From the NCBI GenBank assembly GCA_001577025.1, contig LSCF01000010.1, forward strand, positions 1 to 34,078: a stretch of 34,078 nt of DNA, in the 5' to 3' direction. Source of the DNA: Fidelibacterota bacterium TCS55. GTDB lineage: Bacteria > Fidelibacterota > Marinisomatia > Marinisomatales > TCS55. Position numbers and translations under genes: made by a program. Of the stretch, positions 42 to 33,123 are shown piece after piece; the stretch's first letter is position 1; each line of letters begins with the position of its first letter. Below the pieces are notes generated by a model that made no database searches, was not told the DNA's origin, and saw only the letters and a program-made list of their open reading frames with translations.

Positions 42-836
42 ATGATTGTTCAGAAGAAAGATCATTTGCAAGGAGATCAGGTAACGACCTCCATGTACTA
101 TTTAAAGTCTAATCCGGATGGTTCCTGGGATGAATTATACGAGCTTATGGAAGATGAGTTCACAAAAATGAACCAGTTGGATAAAGAATTAGTGAGTCTA
201 ATGGTCTTAGGCCATTCATTGACTGGTTCTTTAAACGAAGTTGTACAAGTTGCGGAATGGAAATCCATCGCAGACGCAGATAAAAGTACCGTGAATACAG
301 GGGCCATGCGTAGAAAAGCACGGCCAAATGATGAAAAGCGAAGTGCCTTTTATAATAAATACAATAAATATTGGTCAACAAAGCATTCAGACTTGGCTGT
401 TAGGGAACTGGTAACTAGAAGGGTCAAACGGAATAACAAAAGAACCACAGAAAATACCGTGGTCACAGTTCAGGAATTCTACATGAAACCTTTGGGTCAG
501 GTCGAAGGTGGTACTGCCCAAGAGCGGGAAGCCCTTTTTGATGAATATCACGATAAAGTAATTATGAGAAATGATAAAATACTAAGTCGTAAAGAACTGA
601 GGCACTATTGGTCAGGTTCACTTGGGGGTGACACAGCGCCTTTTGTTATCATTACAGAATTTGCAAATACAGATGACATGATCAATAGGACTCCTGATAA
701 TCAGGAAGTCATACGGAAGGCTTGGCCCAATGAAGATGACCGCAGAGAATTCTTTGAAAAAAGGAATAAATATTTAGCCTGGGGCCATAGGGATATTGCA
801 ATTCACAATAATTTGGTAAAAATGAATAAAAGATAA
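42..836 (+). CDS. B1: two-domain barrel-like paralog, divergent, no signal peptide
   Basis: I do not recognise a named family. The protein (264 aa) is an internal duplication. The block around residues 92-120 (RPNDEKRSAFYNKYNKYW) recurs near residues 226-250 (WPNEDDRREFFEKRNKYL), and each half opens with a beta-strand-like segment (TTSMYYLKS and VTVQEFYMKP). The two-domain layout matches the seven secreted proteins that follow, so I take it as the most divergent member of that array. Unlike them it has no visible signal peptide, and an in-frame TAA at 36-38 blocks extension upstream. The ATG at 42 has no clear Shine-Dalgarno, and the next ATG (93) lies 17 nt after an AAGGAG. The 5' end may therefore be wrong, or lost through an indel near the window edge. 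It ends 26 nt before the next gene. Confidence 0.6.
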   Translation: MIVQKKDHLQGDQVTTSMYYLKSNPDGSWDELYELMEDEFTKMNQLDKELVSLMVLGHSLTGSLNEVVQVAEWKSIADADKSTVNTGAMRRKARPNDEKRSAFYNKYNKYWSTKHSDLAVRELVTRRVKRNNKRTTENTVVTVQEFYMKPLGQVEGGTAQEREALFDEYHDKVIMRNDKILSRKELRHYWSGSLGGDTAPFVIITEFANTDDMINRTPDNQEVIRKAWPNEDDRREFFEKRNKYLAWGHRDIAIHNNLVKMNKR

Positions 837-862
837 ATATTATTCACCAAAAGGAGAAACCG

Positions 863-1599
863 ATGAAGAAACGAATATTATGGGGTGCTGCACCCTTATT
901 AACATTCACTGTATTGTTTTCACAATCTGACCCTGTTGCAGCCACCGGTCAGTATAGTAAGGTATACAAAGGTAAAGAAGCAGCTTTTGAAAAGGCAGTG
1001 GCCGGACATGTAAAAAAATGGCATGGCCCTGACCAGTGGCCTACATTCGCAACTGTTGTCATGAATGGACCTCGTATGGGGCAATATTTTATGGGATCCA
1101 CAGGTCATTACTGGAAGGACTATGCAGAAAGAGAGTCTTCAAAGGCCCATAATGTTGAATGGAGGAACATCGTACATAAATATGTAGAAGAACAGAGCGG
1201 TATGATGATGTTTGAAAAAAAACTGGATGCCAGTTATAATGATCGCTCTACCCCAATGTGGGAAGGGACCATTTATTATACTAAACCCGGTAAGCGGGGG
1301 AAAATGCTGGAAATAATGCGTGAGGGTGCAAAAGCTAATCGTAGACTAAGACATAAAGGAAGCACCGGTGTATATAATGTTATTTCAGGTGGTGAACAGG
1401 ATGGAATGCTAGTATTGATAGTATGGATAGCATGGCTGATTTAGCGCCTCAGACTCCATCGATAAGAGATCGATGGGTCAAAGTATATGGTGAAGAAGTA
1501 TTTGAGCAGGCTGTAAAGGATTGGTATGACAGTTACACTAAATCCGAATCAGAAATTCTCAGGTTATTGCCTGAAATGACAACGCCATCAAATAATTAG
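863..1599 (+). pseudogene. B2: secreted two-domain barrel-like paralog, frameshifted
   Basis: AAGGAG at 851-856 sits 6 nt before the ATG. A signal peptide (MKKR, then a hydrophobic run ending LFSQ) is followed by a domain with the family motif HVKKWHG, a GP-containing beta hairpin, and a W-rich helix. The starting frame stops at 1444, just after GGEQDGMLV. The frame one base back continues without interruption (DSMDSMADLAPQTPSIRD, then WVKVYGEE) to TAG at 1597-1599 and ends LPEMTTPSNN. That matches the C-terminal motif of its paralogs (LPELST, RPDMSSP, RRDLSTP). The break lies at about 1405-1420 and fits loss of one base. The most similar paralog is B7, which shares the H..K(F/W)HG..QWP signature. 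It could be a real pseudogene or a sequencing indel. Function unknown. Confidence 0.75.
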
Positions 1600-1611
1600 G
1601 AGGATATGAAA

Positions 1612-2352
1612 ATGAAGAAAAGAATTCTAGGGATAATCATCCCATTAATCACTTCTGTCACCATGTTTGCCCAGGACTACATTATGTTTGAACAGATATA
1701 CCTTGAGCCTTTGAATGGACAGGTCTCAAAACTTGTTGACGGTGTAAAAAAGCATAATGCTAAGTATCATGATGGTAAAAATGGTCCAAAAGCATATTTA
1801 TTTTATGTTTGGACCGGTCCATATTCTGGTCAATATGTTTGGGTTAAAGGTCCTGTAAAATGGACTGATATGGATAATGCAATTGCTGATGATAGTCATA
1901 CGAAAGATTGGGAAATGAACGTAGATAGGTATGGCCGGAGCCATAACATAATGTATTCTGTGAGAGATGAAGACTTGACTTATAACCCAGCAAATGAAAC
2001 TGTGGGTGAAAATGTATTAATCAGAGTACTTGATGTAACCAACTCAAGTGAAGCTATGCCAGCCCTCACTCAAATGGTAAAGGAAATAAGAGACGTTTTA
2101 GAGAAAACTGGTTCCACTCAAGCCCGACGGGTTTACAGGAACAGATTTCGTTCAGAACAAAGAAGAGATCTGACATTAGTTTATCCGTTTCAAAGTTGGG
2201 AATATTTTGAAAATAGCACTGGATTACCCCCTGGTTTTAGTACAGAATTTGAGAAAACACATGGTGAAGGTAGCATGAAAAAAATGGTTGGTGATGTATT
2301 AAGTAAATATACCGATGGCCGGTATGATGAAGTACGAACTATGGTAAAATAA
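1612..2352 (+). CDS. B3: secreted two-domain barrel-like paralog
   Basis: An ATG lies at 1606, but the AGGAGG at 1598-1603, which overlaps the stop of B2, is only 2 nt from it and 8 nt from the ATG at 1612. I therefore choose 1612 (246 aa). The signal peptide ends MFAQ. The first domain runs from DYIMFEQIYLEP through the helix GVKKHNAKYH, the TGPYSGQYVW hairpin and a KGP turn. The second begins near NVLIRVLDV. It is the closest relative of B8: both carry DY.MF, KKHNAKYH, a Y.P.NE.VG linker between domains and a C-terminal MVK. I infer a periplasmic or cell-surface protein with ferredoxin-like (dimeric alpha/beta barrel) folds. No catalytic residues can be assigned. Confidence 0.85.
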   Translation: MKKRILGIIIPLITSVTMFAQDYIMFEQIYLEPLNGQVSKLVDGVKKHNAKYHDGKNGPKAYLFYVWTGPYSGQYVWVKGPVKWTDMDNAIADDSHTKDWEMNVDRYGRSHNIMYSVRDEDLTYNPANETVGENVLIRVLDVTNSSEAMPALTQMVKEIRDVLEKTGSTQARRVYRNRFRSEQRRDLTLVYPFQSWEYFENSTGLPPGFSTEFEKTHGEGSMKKMVGDVLSKYTDGRYDEVRTMVK

Positions 2353-2376
2353 AGAAAAAATGTTTAGGAGCGTAAT

Positions 2377-3129
2377 ATGCTAAAACGTAGCCTAGGAATA
2401 ATTGTCCTATTAATGACCTGTGTTTCTATGCTCGCACAGGAAAATGCAAATATCTATGGAGTGAATTACTTCAAACCAAAAGCGGGTCAAAGAGAAGCCT
2501 ATCTTTCTGGCCTTAAGGATCATACTAAAAAACATCATAGTAAAGGAATCATGAGAGTGAGGACTTACAGTGTTGTATCCGGTGAAAAATCTGGTTGGAT
2601 TGTGCGAGTCTCTGGACCTCTTACATGGGAAGAAGTTGATAAGTTTCAGGAAGACACTAGATCTAAAGCCCATATGGAACATGCCGCAAAATATGTTCAA
2701 CCATACATTGAGGAGAGAATTGGCACGATGTATTGGAGACCTGTGGAAGATCTTCATTTTAATCCAAGTACCTCAGAAAAACCCTCGAAGATGACAAGGG
2801 TTCAATTCACACATTTAAATCCCGGGATGAGCGGTGAATATTATGAATTAAGGCGACGCTATAATGAAGCACTCGAGAAAACAAATAGCGATGCTTCATT
2901 TGGTATGGGGCATTTGGTCCATGGCGGTGAAAGGCATGCTATCTATGCTACGTTTCGTGGAATGGATAGTTGGGCTGATATGAATCCGACCGGACCAAGT
3001 CTTTCTTCAAGATTCAACCAAGTACATGGTAATGATGCCTGGGGTCGATTTTTGAAACAGATTTCAAAGGTTGTAAAGAAGAGCCATGATGAAATGCGTA
3101 TTTATATGGAAGAATACAGTACACGATAA
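2377..3129 (+). CDS. B4: secreted two-domain barrel-like paralog
   Basis: AGGAG at 2366-2370 sits 6 nt before the ATG. The 250-aa product has a signal peptide ending MLAQ. Domain one contains NYFKPKAGQ, the helix GLKDHTKKHH and a VSGEKSGWIVRVSGP hairpin. Domain two starts at about residue 140 (MTRVQFTHLNPG) and carries the family block KTNSDAS...GMGHLVHGGE. The second-domain ending differs slightly from its neighbours (MEEYSTR). The 24-nt spacing from B3 and 32 nt to N1 suggest one transcript. Function unknown. Confidence 0.85.
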   Translation: MLKRSLGIIVLLMTCVSMLAQENANIYGVNYFKPKAGQREAYLSGLKDHTKKHHSKGIMRVRTYSVVSGEKSGWIVRVSGPLTWEEVDKFQEDTRSKAHMEHAAKYVQPYIEERIGTMYWRPVEDLHFNPSTSEKPSKMTRVQFTHLNPGMSGEYYELRRRYNEALEKTNSDASFGMGHLVHGGERHAIYATFRGMDSWADMNPTGPSLSSRFNQVHGNDAWGRFLKQISKVVKKSHDEMRIYMEEYSTR

Positions 3130-3161
3130 TTAATAAAATAAAAACTGAAAGGAATTCAATA

Positions 3162-3623
3162 ATGAAAAAGATAATCATTCTCTCCATTGTCTTCAGTCTG
3201 GGATTACCAACAATCTTATTCGCTGGAGATAAAGAGGAAATTATAGCACTTATTATGGAAAGAGATGCATATGTAAATAAAAATAAAAAATACCCGAATG
3301 AAATCTCAAAAAATGGTTCATTAGAGTTTTGGTCTAGCGGCGGTTTAATGAATAAAAATAATGGCTCAAATACAACATTATATGAAATTTATGATTTAAA
3401 GAGTAAGCATATTAAAATCATTGTACTTGTTCCTGGAAAAGCAGCAGTTGCTATGTTTTATTCTGAAGGATCGATGAAAGCAAAAGGTTTACCTACAGTT
3501 AGCCATTACATGACGCGTGCTACCCAAGCGTTTGTTAAAGAAGGTGGTAAATGGAAGGTTGCTGCTTCCCATTGGTCAGCCCTCAAAGGTGGTGCAGGAA
3601 CAAACCAAACTACTATTGATTAG
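3162..3623 (+). CDS. N1: secreted NTF2/SnoaL-like protein
   Basis: 153 aa, with an N-terminal signal peptide ending LFAG. The rest resembles the SnoaL_3/DUF4440 branch of the NTF2-like fold. An opening helix (DKEEIIALIMERDAY) is followed by strands and the typical closing pair of strands, HYMTRATQAFVKEGGKWKV then ASHWSAL. Such cone-shaped domains bind small molecules or act as simple isomerases or hydrolases. Nothing in this sequence tells which, so function is open. It shares the GDKE start and the Y.TRA...VK.GGKW block with N2 at 5251, so the two are paralogs. It sits between B4 and B5 on the same strand, which suggests a role with the barrel proteins. Confidence 0.8.
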   Translation: MKKIIILSIVFSLGLPTILFAGDKEEIIALIMERDAYVNKNKKYPNEISKNGSLEFWSSGGLMNKNNGSNTTLYEIYDLKSKHIKIIVLVPGKAAVAMFYSEGSMKAKGLPTVSHYMTRATQAFVKEGGKWKVAASHWSALKGGAGTNQTTID

Positions 3624-3649
3624 CGTACAATAAATAATAGGGAGAAACC

Positions 3650-4399
3650 ATGATTAGTAAAAAAAATAGATTCCTTCCATTTACTCTATTTTTTGCCATT
3701 TTAGTTGGGCAGGATGTAACGGTTTATCAGGGCCGTCTCTGGCACCCAAAGCCCATGGAAGGCGAAAAGATGGAAGCAGCCATGGCGGCGAAAACAAAAA
3801 AATACAATGTAGGGAATGAAAATTATCCCATGATCTCATTTCGAACCCTGACAGGTAAGGATCAAGGTGCTGTGTTGAGGGTCAGTTCCGGGACATTTGC
3901 AGATAGAGACAAATATAAACTGCGACAAGCGGAGTTGGAGTATTGGCAGAAGAATGTCATTCCCTATGTGGATATGAGTAAAGATGAAGGCACCACACTT
4001 TGGCGAAAAATGGAAGATCATTCCTATAATGGTTCCGGGAGTGATAAACGATTAAAATACACACAAGTAACGGAATATCTAGTTGGATCAGGTAATTTTC
4101 AAGAATGGAATGCTTTAAGAAGTGAACTTGTCGAAGCCCACAAAAAAACTGGCAGTAAGGCTCGTTTTAACCATTACTATCGTTTTTCAGGAGGTGAAAC
4201 ACATTTGATTGGTATGTCTGTTTACTTTGACTCATGGGAAGAATATGAAAAAATACCTTCAATTTTCAGTGTTGAGCTTTTTGATAAAGCCTATGGAGAA
4301 GGTTCAAGTAAAAAATGGCTATCTAGACAATCAAAAATTGTTAAAAAACGATCAACATTCATTCGTGAGTATTTACCGGAACTGAGCACAATTCAATAG
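3650..4399 (+). CDS. B5: secreted two-domain barrel-like paralog
   Basis: GGGAG at 3640-3644 is correctly spaced before the ATG. The 249-aa protein has a signal peptide ending LVGQ. Domain one: GRLWHPKPMEG, the helix MAAKTKKYN, and the RTLTGKDQGAVLRVSSG hairpin. The linker contains SYNGSGS. Domain two starts near YTQVTEYLVG and has KKTGSKARFNHYYRFSGGE and a VYFDSWEEY strand-turn. The C terminus is LPELSTIQ. B6 is its nearest relative (both have AxKTxKYN and a YNG linker where others have YNP). Function unknown. Confidence 0.85.
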   Translation: MISKKNRFLPFTLFFAILVGQDVTVYQGRLWHPKPMEGEKMEAAMAAKTKKYNVGNENYPMISFRTLTGKDQGAVLRVSSGTFADRDKYKLRQAELEYWQKNVIPYVDMSKDEGTTLWRKMEDHSYNGSGSDKRLKYTQVTEYLVGSGNFQEWNALRSELVEAHKKTGSKARFNHYYRFSGGETHLIGMSVYFDSWEEYEKIPSIFSVELFDKAYGEGSSKKWLSRQSKIVKKRSTFIREYLPELSTIQ

Positions 4400-4420
4400 A
4401 ATAATATAAAATAAAAGGAG
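4395..4420 (+). repeat. Duplicated leader, copy 1
   Basis: A 26-nt leader containing the ribosome binding site of B6. It is identical base for base to 5219-5244 upstream of N2, and it begins inside the B5 stop region. Such a match between unrelated genes (barrel and NTF2-like) points to recent duplication or gene conversion of the intergenic segment. Confidence 0.85.
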
Positions 4421-4428
4421 AAATAATC

Positions 4429-5181
4429 ATGATGAGAATTATAAAAAATATCGCACTATTAATTACATGTTCCTTAGCATTTGGGCAAAGTGATCCACTG
4501 ATAACTTGGACTAGGATTATGAAACCTAAAACTGGTAAACAGAGTCAATTTGTAAAGGCAGTGGCAACAAAAACAGAAAAATATAATAGCCAAAAAGGAG
4601 ATGAAATAATCCGGACATATCGAATTATGGATGGACCTAATGAGGGATCATTTGTCAGGCTAGGCATACCAGGACCTTGGTCACAATTTGATTCAAGATC
4701 TGAAAGACAAAGAGCAGGTACAGAGTATTGGATGAAAAATGTATCTCCTCATGTTGAAATAAATAAAGGGAGGCAGTTTTGGAGTACATCCTCCGATTTG
4801 GCCTACAATGGGACAGGGAACTCCGGCCCAGTACCATTTATCATGTTACGGTACTATCATATTAAACCAAATACATCATTCAGGAACCTTGCAACAAAAG
4901 TCATAGAAACATCGAAAGCTATTAATGAAGATTCACGCTATGCTTGGTACCGTTTGGAGTCCGGTGGGGACAGAAGCACATGGGTTTTTGCCTCAGCCTT
5001 TGACTCATTTTCAGAATTAGATGCAGGAAATTCTGCTTTCTGGGATGCATTTGAAAAACGTCATGGCAAAGGAAGTATGGATAAATGGTTTGAAGAATTT
5101 GGTAATACTGTTCAATCGAATCCCAAATCGCGGGCTGCAGTTATATATGAATATCGGCCCGATATGTCTTCACCTGAATAA
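4429..5181 (+). CDS. B6: secreted two-domain barrel-like paralog
   Basis: 250 aa. It is preceded by a 26-nt leader (4395-4420) that recurs exactly upstream of N2. Two adjacent ATGs (4429, 4432) are possible, and the AAGGAG at 4415-4420 is 8 nt from the first. The signal peptide ends AFGQ. Domain one has RIMKPKTGK, the helix AVATKTEKYN and a MDGPNEGSFVRLGIPGP hairpin. The linker is YNGTGN, as in B5. Domain two carries the ESGGD and FASAFDSFSELD segments and ends YRPDMSSPE. Function unknown. Confidence 0.85.
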   Translation: MMRIIKNIALLITCSLAFGQSDPLITWTRIMKPKTGKQSQFVKAVATKTEKYNSQKGDEIIRTYRIMDGPNEGSFVRLGIPGPWSQFDSRSERQRAGTEYWMKNVSPHVEINKGRQFWSTSSDLAYNGTGNSGPVPFIMLRYYHIKPNTSFRNLATKVIETSKAINEDSRYAWYRLESGGDRSTWVFASAFDSFSELDAGNSAFWDAFEKRHGKGSMDKWFEEFGNTVQSNPKSRAAVIYEYRPDMSSPE

Positions 5182-5218
5182 TCATTAATTTATGTAATTA
5201 AGTAGATTCAATTGATTG

Positions 5219-5244
5219 AATAGAATAATATAAAATAAAAGGAG
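5219..5244 (+). repeat. Duplicated leader, copy 2
   Basis: Exact 26-nt repeat of 4395-4420, ending in the AAGGAG that serves N2. The flanking bases differ, so the duplicated block is short. Confidence 0.85.
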
Positions 5245-5250
5245 CATATC

Positions 5251-5718
5251 ATGAAAAAACGCATGATTTTTGTCATTGGTATATTATTTATTAATAATCT
5301 GATGGCTGGAGATAAGGAAGATCTAATTGAACAAATCAAACAGTTGTGGATAGATATTTCAAATAAAAAAATAGATATGGCTACAATGAATCCTGATGGA
5401 GCTTGGCAGGCAACCTCGCAAGGAGGCTTATGGCAGTTCTTAAGTCCGGAAGGATTTAAGGCTCAAATTGAAGGATCACCATATACCTTAAATTTTTCTC
5501 CCCGTCATATTGAAGTCACAATTTTAGGTAAAAGTAAGGATGTGGCTTTTGCAAACTATTATCTTGTGGGTACAATTAATGGCCCAGACGGTAAGCCGAT
5601 TGCAACCAATTACAGGACCAGAGCCTCTGGTACAATGGTTAAAAAAGGTGGAAAGTGGATTGATATTGGTCAACACTACAGTCCACTTTATGGTGGTTCC
5701 GGCGTCATATTTGAATAA
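5251..5718 (+). CDS. N2: secreted NTF2/SnoaL-like protein
   Basis: 155 aa, signal peptide ending LMAG. After GDKEDLIEQI the protein follows the same NTF2-like pattern as N1, closing with YRTRASGTMVKKGGKW and a final QHYSPLYGG strand. A W-rich stretch (residues 50-65, GAWQATSQGGLWQFL) matches the FWSSGG region of N1. The leader is nearly identical to that of B6. The ligand or reaction is unknown. Its position between B6 and B7 repeats the pattern of two barrel proteins followed by one NTF2-like protein. Confidence 0.8.
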   Translation: MKKRMIFVIGILFINNLMAGDKEDLIEQIKQLWIDISNKKIDMATMNPDGAWQATSQGGLWQFLSPEGFKAQIEGSPYTLNFSPRHIEVTILGKSKDVAFANYYLVGTINGPDGKPIATNYRTRASGTMVKKGGKWIDIGQHYSPLYGGSGVIFE

Positions 5719-5734
5719 AAAATAAGATAACGAT

Positions 5735-5763
5735 GTAGAGACGATCCGGCGGATCGTCTCTAC
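5735..5763. repeat. GTA...TAC palindrome, perfect copy
   Basis: A 13-bp arm (GTAGAGACGATCC) and its exact reverse complement surround a 3-nt GGC loop. It lies between N2 and B7. The arm start GTAGAGACG recurs at 33096. It could act as an RNA hairpin or attenuator, but no T-tract follows. A dispersed REP-like palindrome is more likely because related copies occur elsewhere in the window. Confidence 0.85.
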
Positions 5764-5767
5764 AAAT

Positions 5768-5787
5768 AAATAACAAAATGGAGAAAA
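5768..5787 (+). repeat. Leader shared by B7 and B8, copy 1
   Basis: A 20-nt block (AAATAACAAAATGGAG then AAAA) is identical to 6585-6604. It holds the ribosome binding site of B7. In both copies it begins exactly 4 nt after a GTA...TAC palindrome. Confidence 0.85.
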
Positions 5788-5792
5788 TGATT

Positions 5793-6542
5793 ATGAAACG
5801 AATCGTAGGGATTGTTGTCCCTTTACTTACGTGTGCCGTATTGATCGCACAGGAAAAAGGTAATGTATGGCGCACGTGGTACCTTAAACCGGCTGACGGT
5901 AAAGTTGCTCAGTTAGAAAAAGGTCTGAAAGATCATGTGGAAAAATTTCACGGAAAAGGTCAATGGCCAGAATATTACCACGATATATTAACGGGGCCTA
6001 ATGCAGGTTTATTGATGGGGTGGTCAGGTCCACACACGTTTAAAGCTATGGATGAACGCGTTCGCAGTCCTGAAGATTTTAAACATTGGCAAAAATACGT
6101 TGCCCCTTATGTGGATAATAATACAAACACCGGGATTAGTTTTATGGTTTATGAAAAGGATTTGAGCTATAACCCCAAATTAAAAGGCCCCTATTGGCAT
6201 TATTCATACAATATGGTTCGACCCGGAGCCCATGGTGAATATATCGAGTTTTTAGAAGCAATAAAAAAGACGAAAGCGGCCAATAAAGATCCCCTTTCTC
6301 ATAATATCTATCGTGTGGCTTCTGGCAAATATCCTGATGCATGGGTCTGGGAATATCCCGGGGAATCTTTGGAAGAAATATCAGGCAGTATGCAATCGCC
6401 TGCGGGCCAGTTGGGTATGGATGATGTATTAGGTGAAGAAGAGGCCAAGCGATTAAATGCGATTTACCAAAAAGTGGTCAAATATCGTGTGCGGGAAATA
6501 ATCAAAACGCGTAGAGATTTAAGTACGCCAGAAGACAATTAA
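5793..6542 (+). CDS. B7: secreted two-domain barrel-like paralog
   Basis: Three in-frame ATGs exist (5778, 5787, 5793). The GGAG at 5780-5783 overlaps the first and is 9 nt from the third, so 5793 is preferred (249 aa, MKRIVG). The signal peptide ends LIAQ. Domain one: TWYLKPADGK, the helix GLKDHVEKFHGKGQWP and a LTGPNAGLLMGWSGP hairpin. The linker is LSYNP. Domain two starts at SYNMVRPGAHGEY. The C terminus is RRDLSTPEDN. Just upstream lie a perfect 13-bp palindrome and a leader shared with B8. Function unknown. Confidence 0.85.
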   Translation: MKRIVGIVVPLLTCAVLIAQEKGNVWRTWYLKPADGKVAQLEKGLKDHVEKFHGKGQWPEYYHDILTGPNAGLLMGWSGPHTFKAMDERVRSPEDFKHWQKYVAPYVDNNTNTGISFMVYEKDLSYNPKLKGPYWHYSYNMVRPGAHGEYIEFLEAIKKTKAANKDPLSHNIYRVASGKYPDAWVWEYPGESLEEISGSMQSPAGQLGMDDVLGEEEAKRLNAIYQKVVKYRVREIIKTRRDLSTPEDN

Positions 6543-6552
6543 ATTGACAGAT

Positions 6553-6580
6553 GTATAGACACATAGCGATGCTTCTATAC
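6553..6580. repeat. GTA...TAC palindrome, degenerate copy
   Basis: 28 nt with 7-bp outer arms GTATAGA / TCTATAC and an unpaired centre. It sits 4 nt before the B8 leader, exactly as the perfect palindrome sits before the B7 leader. I read it as a decayed copy duplicated with the leader. The outer G-C pair of other copies is a T-A pair here, so pairing is kept. Confidence 0.6.
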
Positions 6581-6584
6581 CATT

Positions 6585-6604
6585 AAATAACAAAATGGAG
6601 AAAA
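6585..6604 (+). repeat. Leader shared by B7 and B8, copy 2
   Basis: Exact copy of 5768-5787, holding the ribosome binding site of B8 and placed 4 nt after a weaker palindrome at 6553-6580. Confidence 0.85.
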
Positions 6605-6606
6605 GG

Positions 6607-7335
6607 ATGATAAAACGAATAATTGGGATTTTTATCCCTATTCTGACGTGTGCAACATTGTTTGCACAAGATTATGTAATGTTCAACCTGACAACTCTTG
6701 AATTGAGAAAAGGTCAAAATGCCGCGTTACAAACTGGGATTAAAAAGCATAATGCGAAATACCATAATGGAGAAGATGGTGCCAAAGCGTATGCATGGTA
6801 TGTGCATACCGGACCCGATGCAGGCAATTACGTTTGGGGAATGGGGCCCGTACAATTTTCACATATGGACGGCGATCTAAGTCCAGATCATGTGAGAGAT
6901 TGGGATAATAATGTTGCTAAATATGCAAAAGTAACCGAGAATAGTTTTATGGTGCGTGATGAAAAAATGACTTACAATCCAAAAAATGAAGTTGTAGGCC
7001 AAAATATATTGGTGAAACGATTCAAGGTCAAATTTGGACCCCGCCATATGAATGCAGTGAAAGAAGTAGTAGGATCCATTACAAATGTCCTAAAGAAAAC
7101 AAATGCAGATTTTGCCAGACGCGTATACATTAGCCCCTTTAGAGCTAAATATGAACTGATGCTGGTTTATCCATTTGACAGTTGGACCCGTTTTGAAGAT
7201 GGGCAAGGTCTAGGTGCAGACTTTTGGGAAGCCTATGAAAAAATCAATGGTAAAGGTAGTCAACAAAAAGTGGGCGAGATATTAGAAAACCATACTCACG
7301 GTATTACCAACGAAGTTATGACCATGGTAAAATAA
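6607..7335 (+). CDS. B8: secreted two-domain barrel-like paralog, last of the array
   Basis: ATGs occur at 6595 and 6607. GGAG at 6597-6600 overlaps the first and is 6 nt from the second, so 6607 is preferred (242 aa, MIKRIIG). The signal peptide ends LFAQ. It closely tracks B3: DYVMFNLTTLEL, KKHNAKYH, a HTGPDAGNYVWGMGP hairpin, the linker MTYNPKNEVVGQN, a second domain with KKTNADFARRVY and VYPFDSW, and the end MTMVK. B3 and B8 therefore form a subfamily at opposite ends of the array. An intrinsic terminator follows 20 nt after the stop. Function unknown. Confidence 0.87.
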   Translation: MIKRIIGIFIPILTCATLFAQDYVMFNLTTLELRKGQNAALQTGIKKHNAKYHNGEDGAKAYAWYVHTGPDAGNYVWGMGPVQFSHMDGDLSPDHVRDWDNNVAKYAKVTENSFMVRDEKMTYNPKNEVVGQNILVKRFKVKFGPRHMNAVKEVVGSITNVLKKTNADFARRVYISPFRAKYELMLVYPFDSWTRFEDGQGLGADFWEAYEKINGKGSQQKVGEILENHTHGITNEVMTMVK

Positions 7336-7354
7336 TTTTTTTTATATTATTTTG

Positions 7355-7385
7355 AAAAAGCCCTGCATTTTTGTGGGGCTTTTTT
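7355..7385 (+). terminator. Intrinsic terminator of the barrel-protein array
   Basis: AAAAAGCCC (7355-7363) pairs with GGGCTTTTT (7376-7384), and weaker pairing continues into the loop. The stem runs straight into a T-rich tract. It lies 20 nt after the B8 stop and ends the plus-strand array. Confidence 0.9.
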
Positions 7386-7783: not shown

Positions 7784-8949
7784 TTCCCCAACGGCATTAA
7801 AAAGTCAATTCATGCTTGATCCAGAAATCACTTTTCTGAACCACGGATCCTACGGTGCCTGCCCCAAACCTGTATTCGAAGCCTATCAACAATACCAAAA
7901 AGAATTGGAAGTACATCCCATCCAGTTTATGCAAGAGAAAGTCTACGAACTCTTGACGGTCCCGGGAAGCCCTTGGAGATTATATCAATTGCGATAAGGA
8001 TGATGTGATCTATGTGCCGAACCCGACCCACGCCGTGGGTACAATCATCCACAATGTAGATTTAGGTCCCGGCGATGAGGTGCTTTCCACCAATTTAGAA
8101 TATGGTTCATGTGATCGAATGTGGGTCTACGATGGCGCCCAACGGGGATACAAATATATTCAGGCAGAGATGACTCTGCCGGTTGTGGATACGGATACAT
8201 TTTGCAAAGAATTCTGGAACCATGCATCAAAAAATACACGATACATTTTTATCAGTCAGATTACAAGCAGCACGGGGATGATTTTGCCCATTCCAGAAAT
8301 CATGGCCGAAGCAAAAGCTAGAGGTATTGGCACCATTGTTGACGGCGCTCATGTGCCGGCCCACATTCCATTGAATATTCGTGAATTAGATCCGGATTAT
8401 TATACAGGTGCTCTCCATAAATGGTTGTGTTGCCCCAAAGGAAATTCATTCCTTTATGTGAAACGGAAACTGCAGGATGGGATTCAGCCTATGGTAAAAA
8501 GTTGGGGCTGGGGCGAGGAGTATGATGTATTTAAGGATTCCACCCAATTACCTGGTGAGAGTCGGTTTATTAATGTGTTTCAGTGGCAGGGGACTCGGGA
8601 TATGTCGGCCTTTTTCACCGTTCCCGAAGCGATCAAGTTTCAGGCGGACTATGGTTGGGATGATGTGCGCCAGCGATCTATGGATACGGTGCGATCTATC
8701 CGGGATGAGGTAACGGCCATGACGGGATTGCCGAAAATATGTCCCGATGATTGGTTGGGGCAGATGGCGACGATTTTATTTCCATCTGATAATGCAGTAG
8801 CATTCAAAGAAACATTATACCATGATCATGGTATTGAAATGCCCACCATGGCGCCGGATGGTCAGAGTGGTTTCCGGGTATCCATTAATGGGTATAACAC
8901 AGATGCAGATGTGGATTATTTATTGAAGACCTTGAAGACGTTTTTGTAA
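7776..8949 (+). pseudogene. Class V aminotransferase (isopenicillin-N epimerase-like), frameshifted
   Basis: The first segment (7776 on) carries the family N terminus TFLNHGSYGACPKPVFEAYQ. It reads to ELLTV, then leaves the family pattern and stops at 7997. The frame one base further on gives SREALGDYINCDKDDVIYVP from 7960 and runs on to 8949. It shows PNPTHAVG, the PLP-proximal DGAH, and GALHKWLCCPKG with the presumed Schiff-base lysine. The break is at CCCGGG (7961-7966) and fits one inserted base. Joined, the protein is about 390 aa, the normal length for this PLP fold-type I family. The substrate cannot be told from sequence. It may be a decayed gene or a homopolymer error. Confidence 0.85.
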
Positions 8950-13943: not shown

Positions 13944-14849
13944 ATGAAGCCAAATTGGAAAGGTATTTATCCGGCACTAACAACAAAATTTACGGATGAG
14001 GATCAATTAGACATCCCCACATTTCTACAGAATATTGAGTATCAGATTGAAGCAGGTATACATGGATGTGTGATTGGTGGCAGTCTTGGTGAAGCCAGTA
14101 CTTTGACTCAAAAAGAAAAAGTAGATTTATTAAAAGCTGGGGTGGATCATGTGAACAACCGTATCCCTGTGATTATGAATATCGCGGAACAGTCCACAGC
14201 AGAAGCCGTTACGGCTGCCCAAAATGCGCAAGAGAATGGCGCCAATGGCCTCATGATGCTGCCTCCCATGCGTTATCTATCTGATGACCGTGAAACGGTC
14301 GCCTTTTATGAAGCGGTGGCCACATCATGTGATTTGCCCATCATGACCTACAACAACCCCTACGATTACAAAATTGAAATTACGATTCCCATGTTTGAAG
14401 CATTGTTAAAATTTAATACCATCGAAGCAACGAAAGAATCCACACGGGATGTGACTAATGTAACCCGAATGCGGAATGCATTTGGTGATGATATAAAGAT
14501 ACTCTGCGGTGTGGATACACTGGCATTGGAGGAACTGGCTCTCGGTGCGGATGGCTGGGTAGCTGGACTCGTAGATGCTTTCCCCAGAGAGACCGTGGTG
14601 ATCTATGAATTGGTGAAACAAAACCGGATTGCAGAAGCAACAGAAATTTATCGCTGGTTCATGCCCCTTCTTGAATTGGATATACATCCAAAGCTGGTTC
14701 AAAATATTAAACTGGCAGAAGTGGCAACCGGAATTGGTACAGAAAATGTCCGTCCGCCGCGCCTGCCATTGGTCGGTGAAGAACGGGTTCGTGTCCAAAA
14801 TATTATTGATTCTGCATTGGCTTCCCGGCCAGTCATGCCGGAGATTTAG
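13944..14849 (+). CDS. DapA-family deaminase, probably for pyrroline-4-hydroxy-2-carboxylate
   Basis: 301 aa TIM barrel of the dihydrodipicolinate synthase/N-acetylneuraminate lyase family. The Schiff-base lysine is K164 (EATKEST), the catalytic tyrosine Y136 (TYNNPY), and GGSLGEAST replaces the usual GTTGE loop. In hydroxyproline catabolism a DapA-like enzyme deaminates and dehydrates delta1-pyrroline-4-hydroxy-2-carboxylate to 2-oxoglutarate semialdehyde. The three genes immediately downstream supply exactly the other steps, so that role is preferred over lysine synthesis. AAAGGAACT precedes the ATG. First gene of a four-gene operon. Confidence 0.87.
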   Translation: MKPNWKGIYPALTTKFTDEDQLDIPTFLQNIEYQIEAGIHGCVIGGSLGEASTLTQKEKVDLLKAGVDHVNNRIPVIMNIAEQSTAEAVTAAQNAQENGANGLMMLPPMRYLSDDRETVAFYEAVATSCDLPIMTYNNPYDYKIEITIPMFEALLKFNTIEATKESTRDVTNVTRMRNAFGDDIKILCGVDTLALEELALGADGWVAGLVDAFPRETVVIYELVKQNRIAEATEIYRWFMPLLELDIHPKLVQNIKLAEVATGIGTENVRPPRLPLVGEERVRVQNIIDSALASRPVMPEI

Positions 14850-14857
14850 TACGTATT

Positions 14858-16426
14858 ATGATTGAATTAAATTTAATTGGATTTTCCACCAGCGGCCGCG
14901 GTGATACTTTTACCACTGGAATGAACCCTGCAACGGGTGAAGCCCTGTCCGGTCAATTCCCCGGTGCCACCATAGATGAAGTGAATCAAGCAGTCACGTC
15001 CGCTCAGGATGCTGCAGTCGTTTATGGAAAAATGTCTGGTGAAGAAAAAGCTGAATTCCTCAACGCTATCGCTGAAGAGATTGAAAATCTTGGCGATACA
15101 CTTGTGGAAAGATGCTGTGCCGAATCGGGGTTACCTGAAGCACGGATTATTGGTGAACGAGGCAGAACCACCGGTCAATTGAGAATGTTTGCAGATCTTA
15201 TTTCTGAAGGGTCATGGCTTGAAGCCACCATTGATACCGCCCAAAAGGATCGTGCGCCCGTCCCCAAACCGGATTTACGGCGTATGTTGGTACCCATGGG
15301 TCCTGTAGTCGTTTTTGCTGCCAGTAATTTCCCGCTGGCTTTTTCAACGGCTGGTGGCGACACCGCATCGGCACTGGCGGGTGGTAACCCCGTTATTGTA
15401 AAGGCCCACGGTGCCCATCCCGGCACCAGCGCAATGATCGGTGAAGCAATTGTAAAGTCAGCAAAAAGAACGGGCATGCCCCATGGTGTATTTTCGTTGC
15501 TCCACGGTTCAGGAAAAATTGTGGGCCAAGGTCTTATTCAGCACCCTGGCATTAAGGCCGCAGGTTTCACTGGTTCTGAACAGGCCGGCAGAACCCTTTA
15601 TGATTTGGCCAACCAGCGCCCCGAACCCATTCCATTTTTTGCAGAAATGGGGAGTGTCAATCCTGTATTGCTTTTGCCCAGTGCATTCAACTCAGAAACT
15701 GCAGACATGCTGGCAGGATCCATTACCATGGGCGTTGGGCAGTTTTGCACCAATCCTGGACTTATCATCAGCACAGCCGGATCGGACCTCGACCACTTTA
15801 TTCAGATGCTTGGCGCTGCCTTGTCCCAATTAGAATCAGGTGTGATGCTGACAGAACGGATTTGCAAGTCGTATCAAGATGGGGTTGAATCCACTTTATC
15901 ACAACAGGGAATTACCGTAGAAGCGCGATCCGAAAATGGTGATGGCCCAAATATGGGACAACCCACGCTGGCCTCTGTTGCAGGACAGACATTTTTAGCG
16001 GACCCTGAGTTAGCAACAGAAGTATTTGGACCATTTAGTATGGTGGTGAAGTGCAAAGATAATGCCGAACTGGAAGCAGCCATTGGATTACTTGACGGAC
16101 AGCTCACTGGTTCTGTGATTGGATCTAAAGATGAGCTAGATCAATATCACGCTGCCATCGAAACTATGGAAAGTAAAGTAGGACGCATCATTTATAATGG
16201 GGTGCCTACCGGAGTAGAAGTTTGTCCATCCATGCAGCATGGAGGACCTTACCCTGCTGCGTCTGATGCGCGATTTACTTCTGTGGGAACTGGAGCTATT
16301 AAACGATTCGTACGACCTATTGCATTTCAATCTTGGCCTCAGGAAAAATTACCTCGCGAATTACAAGATGGAAATCCCATGAATATCTGGCGGCTAGTAA
16401 ATGGAAATTTATCCAAGGATAGTTAA
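14858..16426 (+). CDS. Aldehyde dehydrogenase, 2-oxoglutarate semialdehyde type
   Basis: 522 aa NAD(P)-dependent aldehyde dehydrogenase. Visible catalytic residues are N157 (ASNFP), E263 (FAEMGS) and the nucleophile C297 (GQFCTNPG). The length and the FPLAFSTAGGDTASALA signature resemble the 2-oxoglutarate (2,5-dioxopentanoate) semialdehyde dehydrogenases found in hydroxyproline and sugar-acid pathways. It would oxidise the semialdehyde made by the preceding deaminase to 2-oxoglutarate, feeding the TCA cycle. It starts 8 nt after the previous stop, and its own stop overlaps the next start (TAATG at 16424-16428). Confidence 0.9.
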   Translation: MIELNLIGFSTSGRGDTFTTGMNPATGEALSGQFPGATIDEVNQAVTSAQDAAVVYGKMSGEEKAEFLNAIAEEIENLGDTLVERCCAESGLPEARIIGERGRTTGQLRMFADLISEGSWLEATIDTAQKDRAPVPKPDLRRMLVPMGPVVVFAASNFPLAFSTAGGDTASALAGGNPVIVKAHGAHPGTSAMIGEAIVKSAKRTGMPHGVFSLLHGSGKIVGQGLIQHPGIKAAGFTGSEQAGRTLYDLANQRPEPIPFFAEMGSVNPVLLLPSAFNSETADMLAGSITMGVGQFCTNPGLIISTAGSDLDHFIQMLGAALSQLESGVMLTERICKSYQDGVESTLSQQGITVEARSENGDGPNMGQPTLASVAGQTFLADPELATEVFGPFSMVVKCKDNAELEAAIGLLDGQLTGSVIGSKDELDQYHAAIETMESKVGRIIYNGVPTGVEVCPSMQHGGPYPAASDARFTSVGTGAIKRFVRPIAFQSWPQEKLPRELQDGNPMNIWRLVNGNLSKDS

Positions 16427-17430
16427 TGGGTAGGTACGTTTTTGATTGTATTGATGCTCATACCTGCGGCAATCCAATTCGCTTGATCAAGTCCGGAGGG
16501 CCCAAGCTCGAAGGGAAGACCATGCTGGATAAACGACAACACTTCATGGTAGAATATGATTGGATCCTCAGGGGACTCATGTTCGAACCAAGAGGCCACG
16601 ATATTATGTCTGGTAGTTTTTTGTATGAACCCAGTAGTGATGAATTTGATATCGGTATTCTATTTATTGAGACCAGTGGCTGTTTGCCCATGTGCGGCCA
16701 TGGCACTATTGGGACAGTTACGATAATGATTCAGGAGGGATTGGTCACCCCTAAAACAGAAGGGGTTGTGATTTTGGAGACACCCGCTGGTAGGGTTGAT
16801 GCCCATTATGCCATGAAGGGGGATAAGGTCAGTTCAGTCAAGATTGTAAATGTGCCCTCATTCCTCTATGCGCGAGATTTGGAAATTAAATCTTCCCATT
16901 TGGGACCCCTAAAGATTGATGTATCCTATGGTGGCAATTTCTATGCTATCGTAGATATGCAGGAGAATTTCAGCGGCATTGATAATTATACTGCAGGTGA
17001 TCTGGGCACATTCAGCCGTGAGATCCGAATCAAACTGAACCAGGAGTATTCATTCGTTCACCCTGATGATGATCGGATCAATAAATGCATTCATATTCTA
17101 TGGTGTGGTGATACTAAATCCCCCAATGCTACCGCTCGTAATGCAGTTTTTTATGGTGAAAAGGCTATCGACCGATCTCCTTGTGGTACCGGGACGTCTG
17201 CCCGTATGGCCCAATGGATGGCAAAGGGGCAATTAGCACCGGGAGCACAATTTGTCCACGAAAGTATTATCAGCAGCCAATTCATCGGGCGCATCGAATC
17301 AGAAACCAAAGTGGGTGAATTTGATGCCATTGTTCCAAGCATTGAAGGTTGGGCTAAAGTATACGGGTATAACCAGATCATCATTGATGAAGAAGATGAC
17401 CCTTATGCTCATGGATTTCAGGTAATCTAA
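16426..17430 (+). CDS. lhpA: 4-hydroxyproline 2-epimerase (proline racemase family)
   Basis: 334 aa. Both catalytic cysteines are present, C90 (PMCGHGT) and C253 (SPCGTGTSAR). That points to an epimerase or racemase, since trans-3-hydroxyproline dehydratases replace the second cysteine. It would convert trans-4-hydroxy-L-proline to cis-4-hydroxy-D-proline. Proline racemase is the alternative, but neighbouring genes complete the hydroxyproline route. It overlaps the aldehyde dehydrogenase by one base and abuts the oxidase gene with no gap, so translation is probably coupled. Confidence 0.9.
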   Translation: MGRYVFDCIDAHTCGNPIRLIKSGGPKLEGKTMLDKRQHFMVEYDWILRGLMFEPRGHDIMSGSFLYEPSSDEFDIGILFIETSGCLPMCGHGTIGTVTIMIQEGLVTPKTEGVVILETPAGRVDAHYAMKGDKVSSVKIVNVPSFLYARDLEIKSSHLGPLKIDVSYGGNFYAIVDMQENFSGIDNYTAGDLGTFSREIRIKLNQEYSFVHPDDDRINKCIHILWCGDTKSPNATARNAVFYGEKAIDRSPCGTGTSARMAQWMAKGQLAPGAQFVHESIISSQFIGRIESETKVGEFDAIVPSIEGWAKVYGYNQIIIDEEDDPYAHGFQVI

Positions 17431-18681
17431 ATGCCCCAATCTGATGTGGTCATCATCGGTGGTGGTGCCATCGGTCTTTCATCCGCCTATTATCTAAACC
17501 GCGCTGGATATAGTGTAACTATTCTGGATGACCAAACACCGGATCAAGTGGGGTCATGCTCTTGGGGGAATGCGGGCATGGTTTGTCCCAGTCACTTCGT
17601 GCCATTGGCGGCCCCCGGTGTAGTAAAGCAAGGTCTTAAATGGCTCATGGATCCGGAAAGTCCATTCTCAATCGAACTTTCTCTCTCATTTGAAATGATC
17701 CAGTGGCTCTGGCAATTTCGGAAAGCCGCTAACCCAACCCATGTGAAAAATAGTGCCAATACCCTACGAGAGTTGGGTATGTTCAGCCGGTCATTATTTA
17801 TAGAATTAGACCAGACTTTAAATTTTGGATTCACCCAAGATGGCATCCTCATGCTCTGCAGTGAAGAAGAGACTCTATCCCATGAATTATCTGTATCCAA
17901 AATGGCCAGAGATATGGGGTTGGATGCGATCGATTTAGACCCTGAAGGTGTGGCGAAAACGGAAACAGGTATGGCCACCGATTTGGCTGGTGGTGTTTAT
18001 TATCCACTGGATTGCCACGTGAATCCGGTCACTTTTTTGTCCGCCATGAAAAACCATTTAAAAGAACAGGGTGTATCTATTCACCATGGAACGTATGTCA
18101 CGGGTATTGATGGAGAAAAAAATAGAATCACCATGGTCCATACTGAAAATGAATCATGGAAAGGAGATCATTTTGTATTGGCTGCGGGTGCCTTTTCATC
18201 CAAACTGATTCATTCACTGGGATTAAAGATGCCGCTCATGGCCGGGAAAGGATACAGCGTTACAATGGATTTACCGACCCAAAAGCCGGCCATCCCAGCC
18301 ATTTTGGTAGAGGCTAGAATTGCGTCCACACCCATGGGGTCGACTTGGCGATTCGGCGGCACCATGACCGTGACCCAGCGGTCGAAAGAAATAAACCAAC
18401 GAAAATTGCACGCCATGCTTCGAGCCGTATCCAACTATTATCCGGAATATGAATATGATTGGACGACCTCACTCGAGCCATGGGTAGGGCTTCGACCCCT
18501 ATCCGCTGACGGGATGCCCTATATTGGCCCATTTGAAAAATATCCCAATCTCATTGCTGCAACGGGCCACGCCATGGTGGGGGTTAGCCTGGCCACAGGG
18601 ACAGGCCATTTAGTGACTGATATTGTTTCTAAGCGGAGACCTGCCATGGATTTATCCAATCTTAGACCGGATCGGTTTTGA
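17431..18681 (+). CDS. DadA-like FAD oxidoreductase, probable cis-4-hydroxy-D-proline dehydrogenase
   Basis: 416 aa. The N terminus holds a dinucleotide-binding motif (VVIIGGGAIGLSSAYYL) and the C terminus the DAO-family signature (GLRPLSADGMPYIGP, then ATGHAMVGV). It belongs to the DadA/glycine-oxidase group that oxidises D-amino acids to imino acids and passes electrons to the respiratory chain. In this operon the substrate should be cis-4-hydroxy-D-proline, giving pyrroline-4-hydroxy-2-carboxylate for the deaminase. It is a single polypeptide, unlike multi-subunit hydroxyproline dehydrogenases. It begins directly after the epimerase stop and ends with TGA. Confidence 0.88.
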   Translation: MPQSDVVIIGGGAIGLSSAYYLNRAGYSVTILDDQTPDQVGSCSWGNAGMVCPSHFVPLAAPGVVKQGLKWLMDPESPFSIELSLSFEMIQWLWQFRKAANPTHVKNSANTLRELGMFSRSLFIELDQTLNFGFTQDGILMLCSEEETLSHELSVSKMARDMGLDAIDLDPEGVAKTETGMATDLAGGVYYPLDCHVNPVTFLSAMKNHLKEQGVSIHHGTYVTGIDGEKNRITMVHTENESWKGDHFVLAAGAFSSKLIHSLGLKMPLMAGKGYSVTMDLPTQKPAIPAILVEARIASTPMGSTWRFGGTMTVTQRSKEINQRKLHAMLRAVSNYYPEYEYDWTTSLEPWVGLRPLSADGMPYIGPFEKYPNLIAATGHAMVGVSLATGTGHLVTDIVSKRRPAMDLSNLRPDRF

Positions 18682-33095: not shown

Positions 33096-33123
33096 GTAGA
33101 GACGCAGCATGCTACGTCTCTAC
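33096..33123. repeat. GTA...TAC palindrome between convergent genes
   Basis: 28 nt with 9-bp arms GTAGAGACG / CGTCTCTAC around a near-palindromic centre containing AGCATGCT. It fills the short gap between the convergent YbjQ-family gene and the large sortilin-like gene. It is the closest relative of the perfect palindrome at 5735. Confidence 0.8.

Follow-up and report, generated by a model that had tools for sequence, protein, structure and literature searches.

The first 7.4 kb of the window (the whole stretch of 34,078 nucleotides analysed here, which is one entire contig, G000:C2, of a 1.72-Mb Fidelibacterota genome in 98 contigs) hold an array of ten plus-strand open reading frames. Seven of these genes, B2 to B8, are true paralogs as judged from their sequences, and leader DNA and signal peptides in the array track array membership and not orthology. 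Of all features of the array, this sharing of leaders is the most novel. We give roughly even credence to the overall reading that an exported tandem-barrel family is kept here in a reshuffling array, with old subfamilies that each bind, and probably convert, a different small molecule outside the cytoplasm. The family has no Pfam or NCBIfam model and belongs to a mostly uncultured marine phylum; its predicted fold is a known one and suggests chemistry on small molecules outside the cytoplasm; the analysis also names subfamilies worth testing.

Layout of the array and its protein families

The genes stand in the order B1, B2, B3, B4, S1, B5, B6, S2, B7 and B8. An earlier, sequence-only reading had described an array of eight secreted paralogs. 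The eight same-strand reading frames are present, but the paralogs number seven, since B1 (42..836) had no BLAST match to B2-B8, and two SnoaL-like genes, S1 (3162..3623) and S2 (5251..5718), are interleaved with them. A terminator-like hairpin with a T run (7354..7385) closes the array, as that reading had proposed. However, a perfect 31-nt palindrome (GTAGAGACG...CGTCTCTAC, 5734..5764) lies between S2 and B7, and a single unbroken array transcript is therefore not assured. No RNA family or tRNA was found in the window, B4 had no match among plasmids, and no viral contig was confirmed for a distant relative. A defence system was rejected, with no PADLOC match.

B2-B8 were joined into one connected group by BLASTP. 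B3 (1606..2352) and B8 (6595..7335) formed the best pair at 47% identity, and B5 (3650..4399) with B6 (4429..5181), as well as B2 (863..1444) with B7 (5778..6542), were best or near-best partners, in agreement with the subfamilies first read from the sequence; B4 (2377..3129) completes the group. The proposed common length of about 250 aa does not apply to B2, which is frameshifted and reads as 193 aa, with its remaining C-terminal part in a different frame, to about 1599; an unbroken relative was found at L066:1210-1947. No Pfam, NCBIfam or PADLOC model was matched above its cut-off by B2-B8, which upholds the claim that they belong to no recognised family. Sub-threshold matches to DUF6854 (PF21614, two members, E 0.055) and NIPSNAP (PF07978, one member, E 0.084) were under the curated cut-offs, the Pfam ABM model had no match at E <= 1 for the window members or the 23 aligned members, and PDB sequence searches with four profiles returned nothing credible.

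The signal-peptide-like N-termini, read from the sequence and not by a predictor, end in an invariant Q in all 49 of 49 homologs, and B2-B8 are probably Sec-exported and extracytoplasmic. This Q, at the presumed cleavage site, is the only family-wide invariant polar residue. Matches to Peptidase M28, a possible glutaminyl cyclase for an N-terminal Q, were very numerous. The B proteins also contain the GP hairpin that had been noticed earlier, as TGPxxG, together with YNP and P(D/E)LS(S/T) motifs. Helix 1 keeps an HxxKxH motif in 19/23 aligned members, with KxxKxN in its place in B5, the B5 orthologs and B6.

By sequence, B1 appears to be a different, internally duplicated family whose kinship to B2-B8 is not shown. 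Its halves match each other (hhalign E 1e-36), and neither of them matched a B domain (hhalign E >= 0.028); the whole B1 and B profiles had a marginal similarity (probability 48%, E 2e-4) that is too weak to call. The AlphaFold2 model of B1, from an alignment of two sequences, had a pLDDT of 35. Export-like N-termini had been correctly noted for all copies except B1, but the missing signal peptide of B1 is accounted for by a 5' end that is broken at the contig edge, with in-frame stops upstream; relatives with a signal peptide occur at five other loci (L038, L065, L068, L075 and L076). Neither unrelated folds nor separate known families, which the sequence-only reading had named as grounds against a single family, were found among B2-B8, while B1 falls outside a single-family reading by sequence.

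S1 and S2 are linked by BLASTP (31% identity) and are SnoaL-like (NTF2-like) and putatively exported. Their Pfam matches were weak and below cut-off: SnoaL_3 (E 0.004) and DUF4440 (E 0.009) for S1, and SnoaL_3 (E 0.026) for S2, with SnoaL_3 scores of 17.9 and 15.3 bits, respectively, against a cut-off of 22. The matches cover the C-terminal part. Unlike the SnoaL-like and DUF4440 families, S1 and S2 are putatively exported and embedded in a barrel array, with scores under the curated cut-offs.

Spread, tree and reshuffled arrays

A search in other Marinimicrobia had been suggested, and it recovered both the family and related arrays. The B family occurs in 42/245 genomes of the phylum, mostly with one to three copies, and the window holds the most. 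A single-protein B4 scan of named genomes gave one genome, the Candidatus Neomarinimicrobiota MAG NIOZ-UU60, which is the closest named relative found and carries an array piece with members 92-98% identical to B3 (97.6%), B4 (94%) and B5. More distant members in genomes of family f15 (0.4-1.0 Mb) are clear homologs (hhalign E 1e-27), and some of them form tandem pairs in a conserved neighbourhood. B and B1 co-occur in 17 genomes (Fisher p 2e-6, kinship ignored) and are neighbours in the window and in seven other genomes. S adjoins B in six genomes, and a further companion type, the 149-aa T protein, adjoins B in 4/5 strong occurrences.

The corresponding site in relatives, beside the DUF983, aminotransferase, NhaC, aminopeptidase P and amidohydrolase genes or a part of this set, carries different arrays: B4-B3-B8 in G008, B2-T-B8 in G012, B1-B7-S1 in G006 and B1-B8 in G150. 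The aminotransferase gene, like B2, has a frameshift. The array of G009, B2(fragment)-B3-B4-B1-S1-B5-S2-B8(fragment), is on a contig with other neighbours, and that of G147 reads B1-S1-B2-T-B4. Since G147 and G150 are 6-7% contaminated, the family placement of both is uncertain. We read the array as a reshuffling set of this Marinimicrobia genus, made of B2-B8 plus other small exported proteins, in which recombination would bring genes in, remove them and change their order.

The sequence-only reading had taken the copies for an amplification that suggests selection, either for the dosage of an exported protein or for its diversity. A recent amplification, retained because it raises the dosage of a surface protein or diversifies it in an antigenic manner, would fit the copy number of the window, which is the highest among the 245 genomes, as well as the leader DNA common to array genes and the variation in array gene content between close relatives. 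However, the mature parts of the window copies are only 16-48% identical to one another, and in a maximum-likelihood tree of 49 B-family members the seven copies take seven separate places, all seven forced by well-supported branches and most with orthologs in other genomes. B2 groups with G147 and family f8, B3 and B8 with genera g1, g5 and g7 (which hold the B8 orthologs), B4 with copies of genera g1 and g7 and of G147, B5 with its orthologs in family f8, and B7 with its orthologs in genus g8 and G126; B6 lies on a long branch and had no close ortholog among those found. Ortholog pairs of B3, B4, B5 and B7 had dN/dS values of 0.06-0.16, and on these sequence comparisons the B orthologs are under purifying selection. 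Recent amplification with diversifying selection was rejected on the tree and dN/dS, and we regard amplification for dosage or diversity as very improbable. As the B subfamilies are old and conserved, the array is better read as a toolkit of distinct functions than as a recent amplification.

Leader and signal-peptide sharing

The stretch made of the B7 leader and signal peptide (5757..5854) recurs at B8 (6574..6671) with 80% identity over 98 nt, a match reported by a repeat finder. DNA identity between B7 and B8 was 79% in the untranslated leader and 75% in the signal-peptide codons, and dropped to 25% in the next 63 nt, compared to 27% +/- 6% by chance. The perfect palindrome described above lies 5' of the B7 leader and forms the upstream border of this type of leader; a decayed hairpin stands immediately upstream of the B8 leader, and palindromes of this type were found in four places in the genome. 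In addition, B6 and the unrelated S2 have a common 30-nt leader at 97% identity.

We observed the same pattern when signal peptides and mature parts were compared separately. B7 is 46-51% identical to its g8 orthologs in the mature part and 20-30% in the signal peptide, whereas B7 and B8 are 21% identical in the mature part and 62% in the signal peptide. Likewise, B4 and its g7 ortholog are 66% identical in the mature part and 33% in the signal peptide, against 23% and 62% for B4 and B3, and 22% and 76% for B4 and B8 within G008. At the DNA level, B genes of G008 and G147 are about 70-80% identical in the signal-peptide region and roughly 20-50% beyond it. The B5 signal peptide is an exception, being unlike those of its neighbours, and T genes do not have the B signal peptide.

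Such likeness could also arise with no exchange of DNA, if selection maintains one export or expression signal across an ordinary cluster of old paralogs, and KRIxGIIIPLxTC-like leaders do occur in several genomes of the genus, beyond one array. This explanation is nevertheless unlikely in our view, since the B7/B8 likeness reaches into untranslated DNA and ends with the signal peptide, and the leader common to B6 and S2 joins unrelated proteins. In addition, for orthologs from other genera the mature parts are 49-66% identical and the signal peptides only 20-33%; for array paralogs, 21-24% identity goes with signal peptides up to 62-76% identical. The simplest reading of these comparisons is that leader DNA has apparently been copied between array genes. 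We tentatively propose, as something short of an even prospect, a leader-exchange system in which the palindrome, the untranslated leader and the signal peptide would be recombined as a unit onto different exported barrel proteins, with the leader alone being passed even to an unrelated SnoaL-type gene. Genes would thereby come to be expressed and exported through the same front end, and their mature parts would keep separate, old functions. If true, leader exchange would be a simple route for bacteria to put unlike genes under common expression and export, and signal-peptide similarity may mislead the inference of paralogs.

Predicted fold and possible functions

The dimeric alpha+beta barrel consists of two ferredoxin-like beta-alpha-beta-beta-alpha-beta units, dimerised or fused (PMC4835899). 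B4 was modelled with AlphaFold2 from an alignment of nine relatives from the window and NIOZ-UU60 (pLDDT 85, pTM 0.79), and the model has the order strand-helix-strand-strand-helix(es)-strand, twice. B4 is thus predicted to consist of two ferredoxin-like repeats forming a tandem dimeric alpha+beta barrel, which at the fold level places it in this superfamily; the same fold is predicted for B2, B3 and B5-B8 by homology to B4. Within the family profile, the N-half matched the C-half (hhalign E 1.6e-6), which indicates an internal duplication. The two barrel-like domains of dimeric alpha/beta barrel type anticipated from the sequence are supported by the B4 model, its Foldseek matches and this duplication. 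The YNP linker and the P(E/D)LST tail had been listed as separate features; both are present, but they represent one motif closing each half, because the repeat is plain in the f15 proteins, where the N-half ends in LRPDLSxN and the C-half in RPDLS(T).

Foldseek gave 109 PDB matches for the B4 model at E <= 0.001, with 2PGC first, followed by 3F44, Cld/ChdC structures, 5F9P, 3MCS and PenE. The best match, 2PGC (JCVI_PEP_1096685590403, E 8e-10, TM 0.55/0.64), is a tandem alpha+beta barrel from a marine metagenome, and likewise of marine source; it differs from the B family by about 12% identity, a length of 206 aa and no sequence match at the profile level. The tandem putative monooxygenases 3F44 and 3MCS, the anthrone oxidase-like 5F9P and PenE (9KDP) likewise consist of a fused pair of ferredoxin-like domains (E 2e-8 to 9e-6), but their identity to B is 7-11% and the B proteins lack the ABM match; we know of no exported arrays of this type. 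Literature searches on Marinimicrobia with the dimeric barrel fold, and on 2PGC, returned nothing.

This fold does not fix function by itself: heme enzymes, isomerases and cyclases all have it, as do proteins for which no activity is known. One alternative gives the B proteins a role with heme or porphyrin outside the cytoplasm, in which they would either work like chlorite dismutase (Cld), coproheme decarboxylase (ChdC) or DyP or serve to capture heme. B4 has Cld and ChdC among its best structural matches (E about 1e-6), and their two-domain subunit of about 240-250 aa resembles the B proteins in architecture and size. The frequent helix-1 HxxKxH would suit such a role, and heme sites have migrated within the superfamily (PMC4835899), which also counts for it. 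Identity of Cld/ChdC to B is however 8-14%, and Cld, ChdC and DyP bind the porphyrin in their C-terminal domain, through a proximal His (PMC7611857), whereas the best C-domain His column in the B family reaches only 9/23. Because this proximal His is not conserved, a Cld-type heme role is disfavoured, and a Cld-type heme enzyme was rejected by sequence; moreover, the HxxKxH pair itself is replaced in the B5 group and B6. A heme function is quite improbable overall. For site-directed work, the HxxKxH pair is the foremost candidate.

Pure extracytoplasmic binding or scaffolding, without catalysis, is possible though somewhat doubtful. No catalytic residue common to the whole family is apparent, and for many barrels with this fold no activity is known. 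The SnoaL-like company hints instead at small-molecule chemistry, as does an exported methyltransferase-like protein that accompanies two subfamilies elsewhere. According to the reading that we prefer, with small molecules bound and probably converted, each B protein would be made of two fused ferredoxin-like domains closing into a barrel that holds a hydrophobic small molecule, a different one for each subfamily, in the periplasm or outside the cell. Conversion would proceed without an obligatory heme, probably by the cofactor-independent monooxygenase or cyclase type, like tandem antibiotic-biosynthesis-monooxygenase-like barrels; otherwise the proteins would act as binders. The absence of any family-wide polar residue but Q counts against the enzyme view, being unusual for a single-mechanism enzyme family. 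The SnoaL-type proteins would be companion small-molecule proteins. The methyltransferase-like protein, judged by reading and with no Pfam match, was found in 9/130 genomes of the order, and lies near a B gene of one of these two subfamilies in five genomes.

Exported proteins encoded beside the B genes

Among the 49 aligned homologs of the exported tandem-barrel paralogs B2-B8 (B genes), the presumed signal-peptidase +1 position was Q in every member (49/49). This is similar to the Q-rule of Bacteroidetes, which has been reported not to be general within the FCB group (PMC5837995).

Genes of the T family nearly always adjoin B genes; they encode an exported protein of 149 aa, found at L034:6170-6619, L037:7765-8190 and L066:746-1195 in relatives, which showed a weak likeness to DUF6614 (E 0.009). 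We also observed another exported companion (L033:11133-11945, L069:974-1786, L063:7946-8725 and L073:6705-7508), which we read as methyltransferase-like; a Pfam search with this protein gave no match. It was present in 9 of the 130 genomes of the order, and in five of these nine, B genes of two subfamilies lie nearby. In the small-genome lineage f15, a B gene is adjoined (L060:5481-6410) by genes for an exported metallo-beta-lactamase-fold protein, resembling PqqB by eye, and for a protein judged rhodanese-like in the same way.

Frameshifts, and an apparent junction in the array

The class V aminotransferase-like gene (window 7815-8949) lacks its N-terminal part in frame, with an in-frame start at 8005 and the upstream piece in a different frame. 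This gene is unbroken in relatives, and a 92% identical copy is carried on contig C42 of the source genome. Since B2 is also frameshifted, giving two frameshifts within 7 kb, a sequencing or assembly error is possible.

In the relative G009, about 28 residues resembling the start of a PIN-domain protein are fused in front of the C-terminal part of B2 (L031:9674-10030), apparently a recombination junction within the array.

Palindromes and putative catabolic genes

REP-like palindromes, GTAGAGACG...CGTCTCTAC, were located at window positions 5735-5763 and 33096-33123. A pattern search of the genome found four such places and none for a control pattern.

Consecutive DHDPS-family, aldehyde dehydrogenase, proline-racemase-family and DAO-family genes, assigned by Pfam matches, occupy 13944-18681 and resemble what we take to be a full 4-hydroxyproline degradation route. 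Aminopeptidase P-like and amidohydrolase genes neighbour this row.
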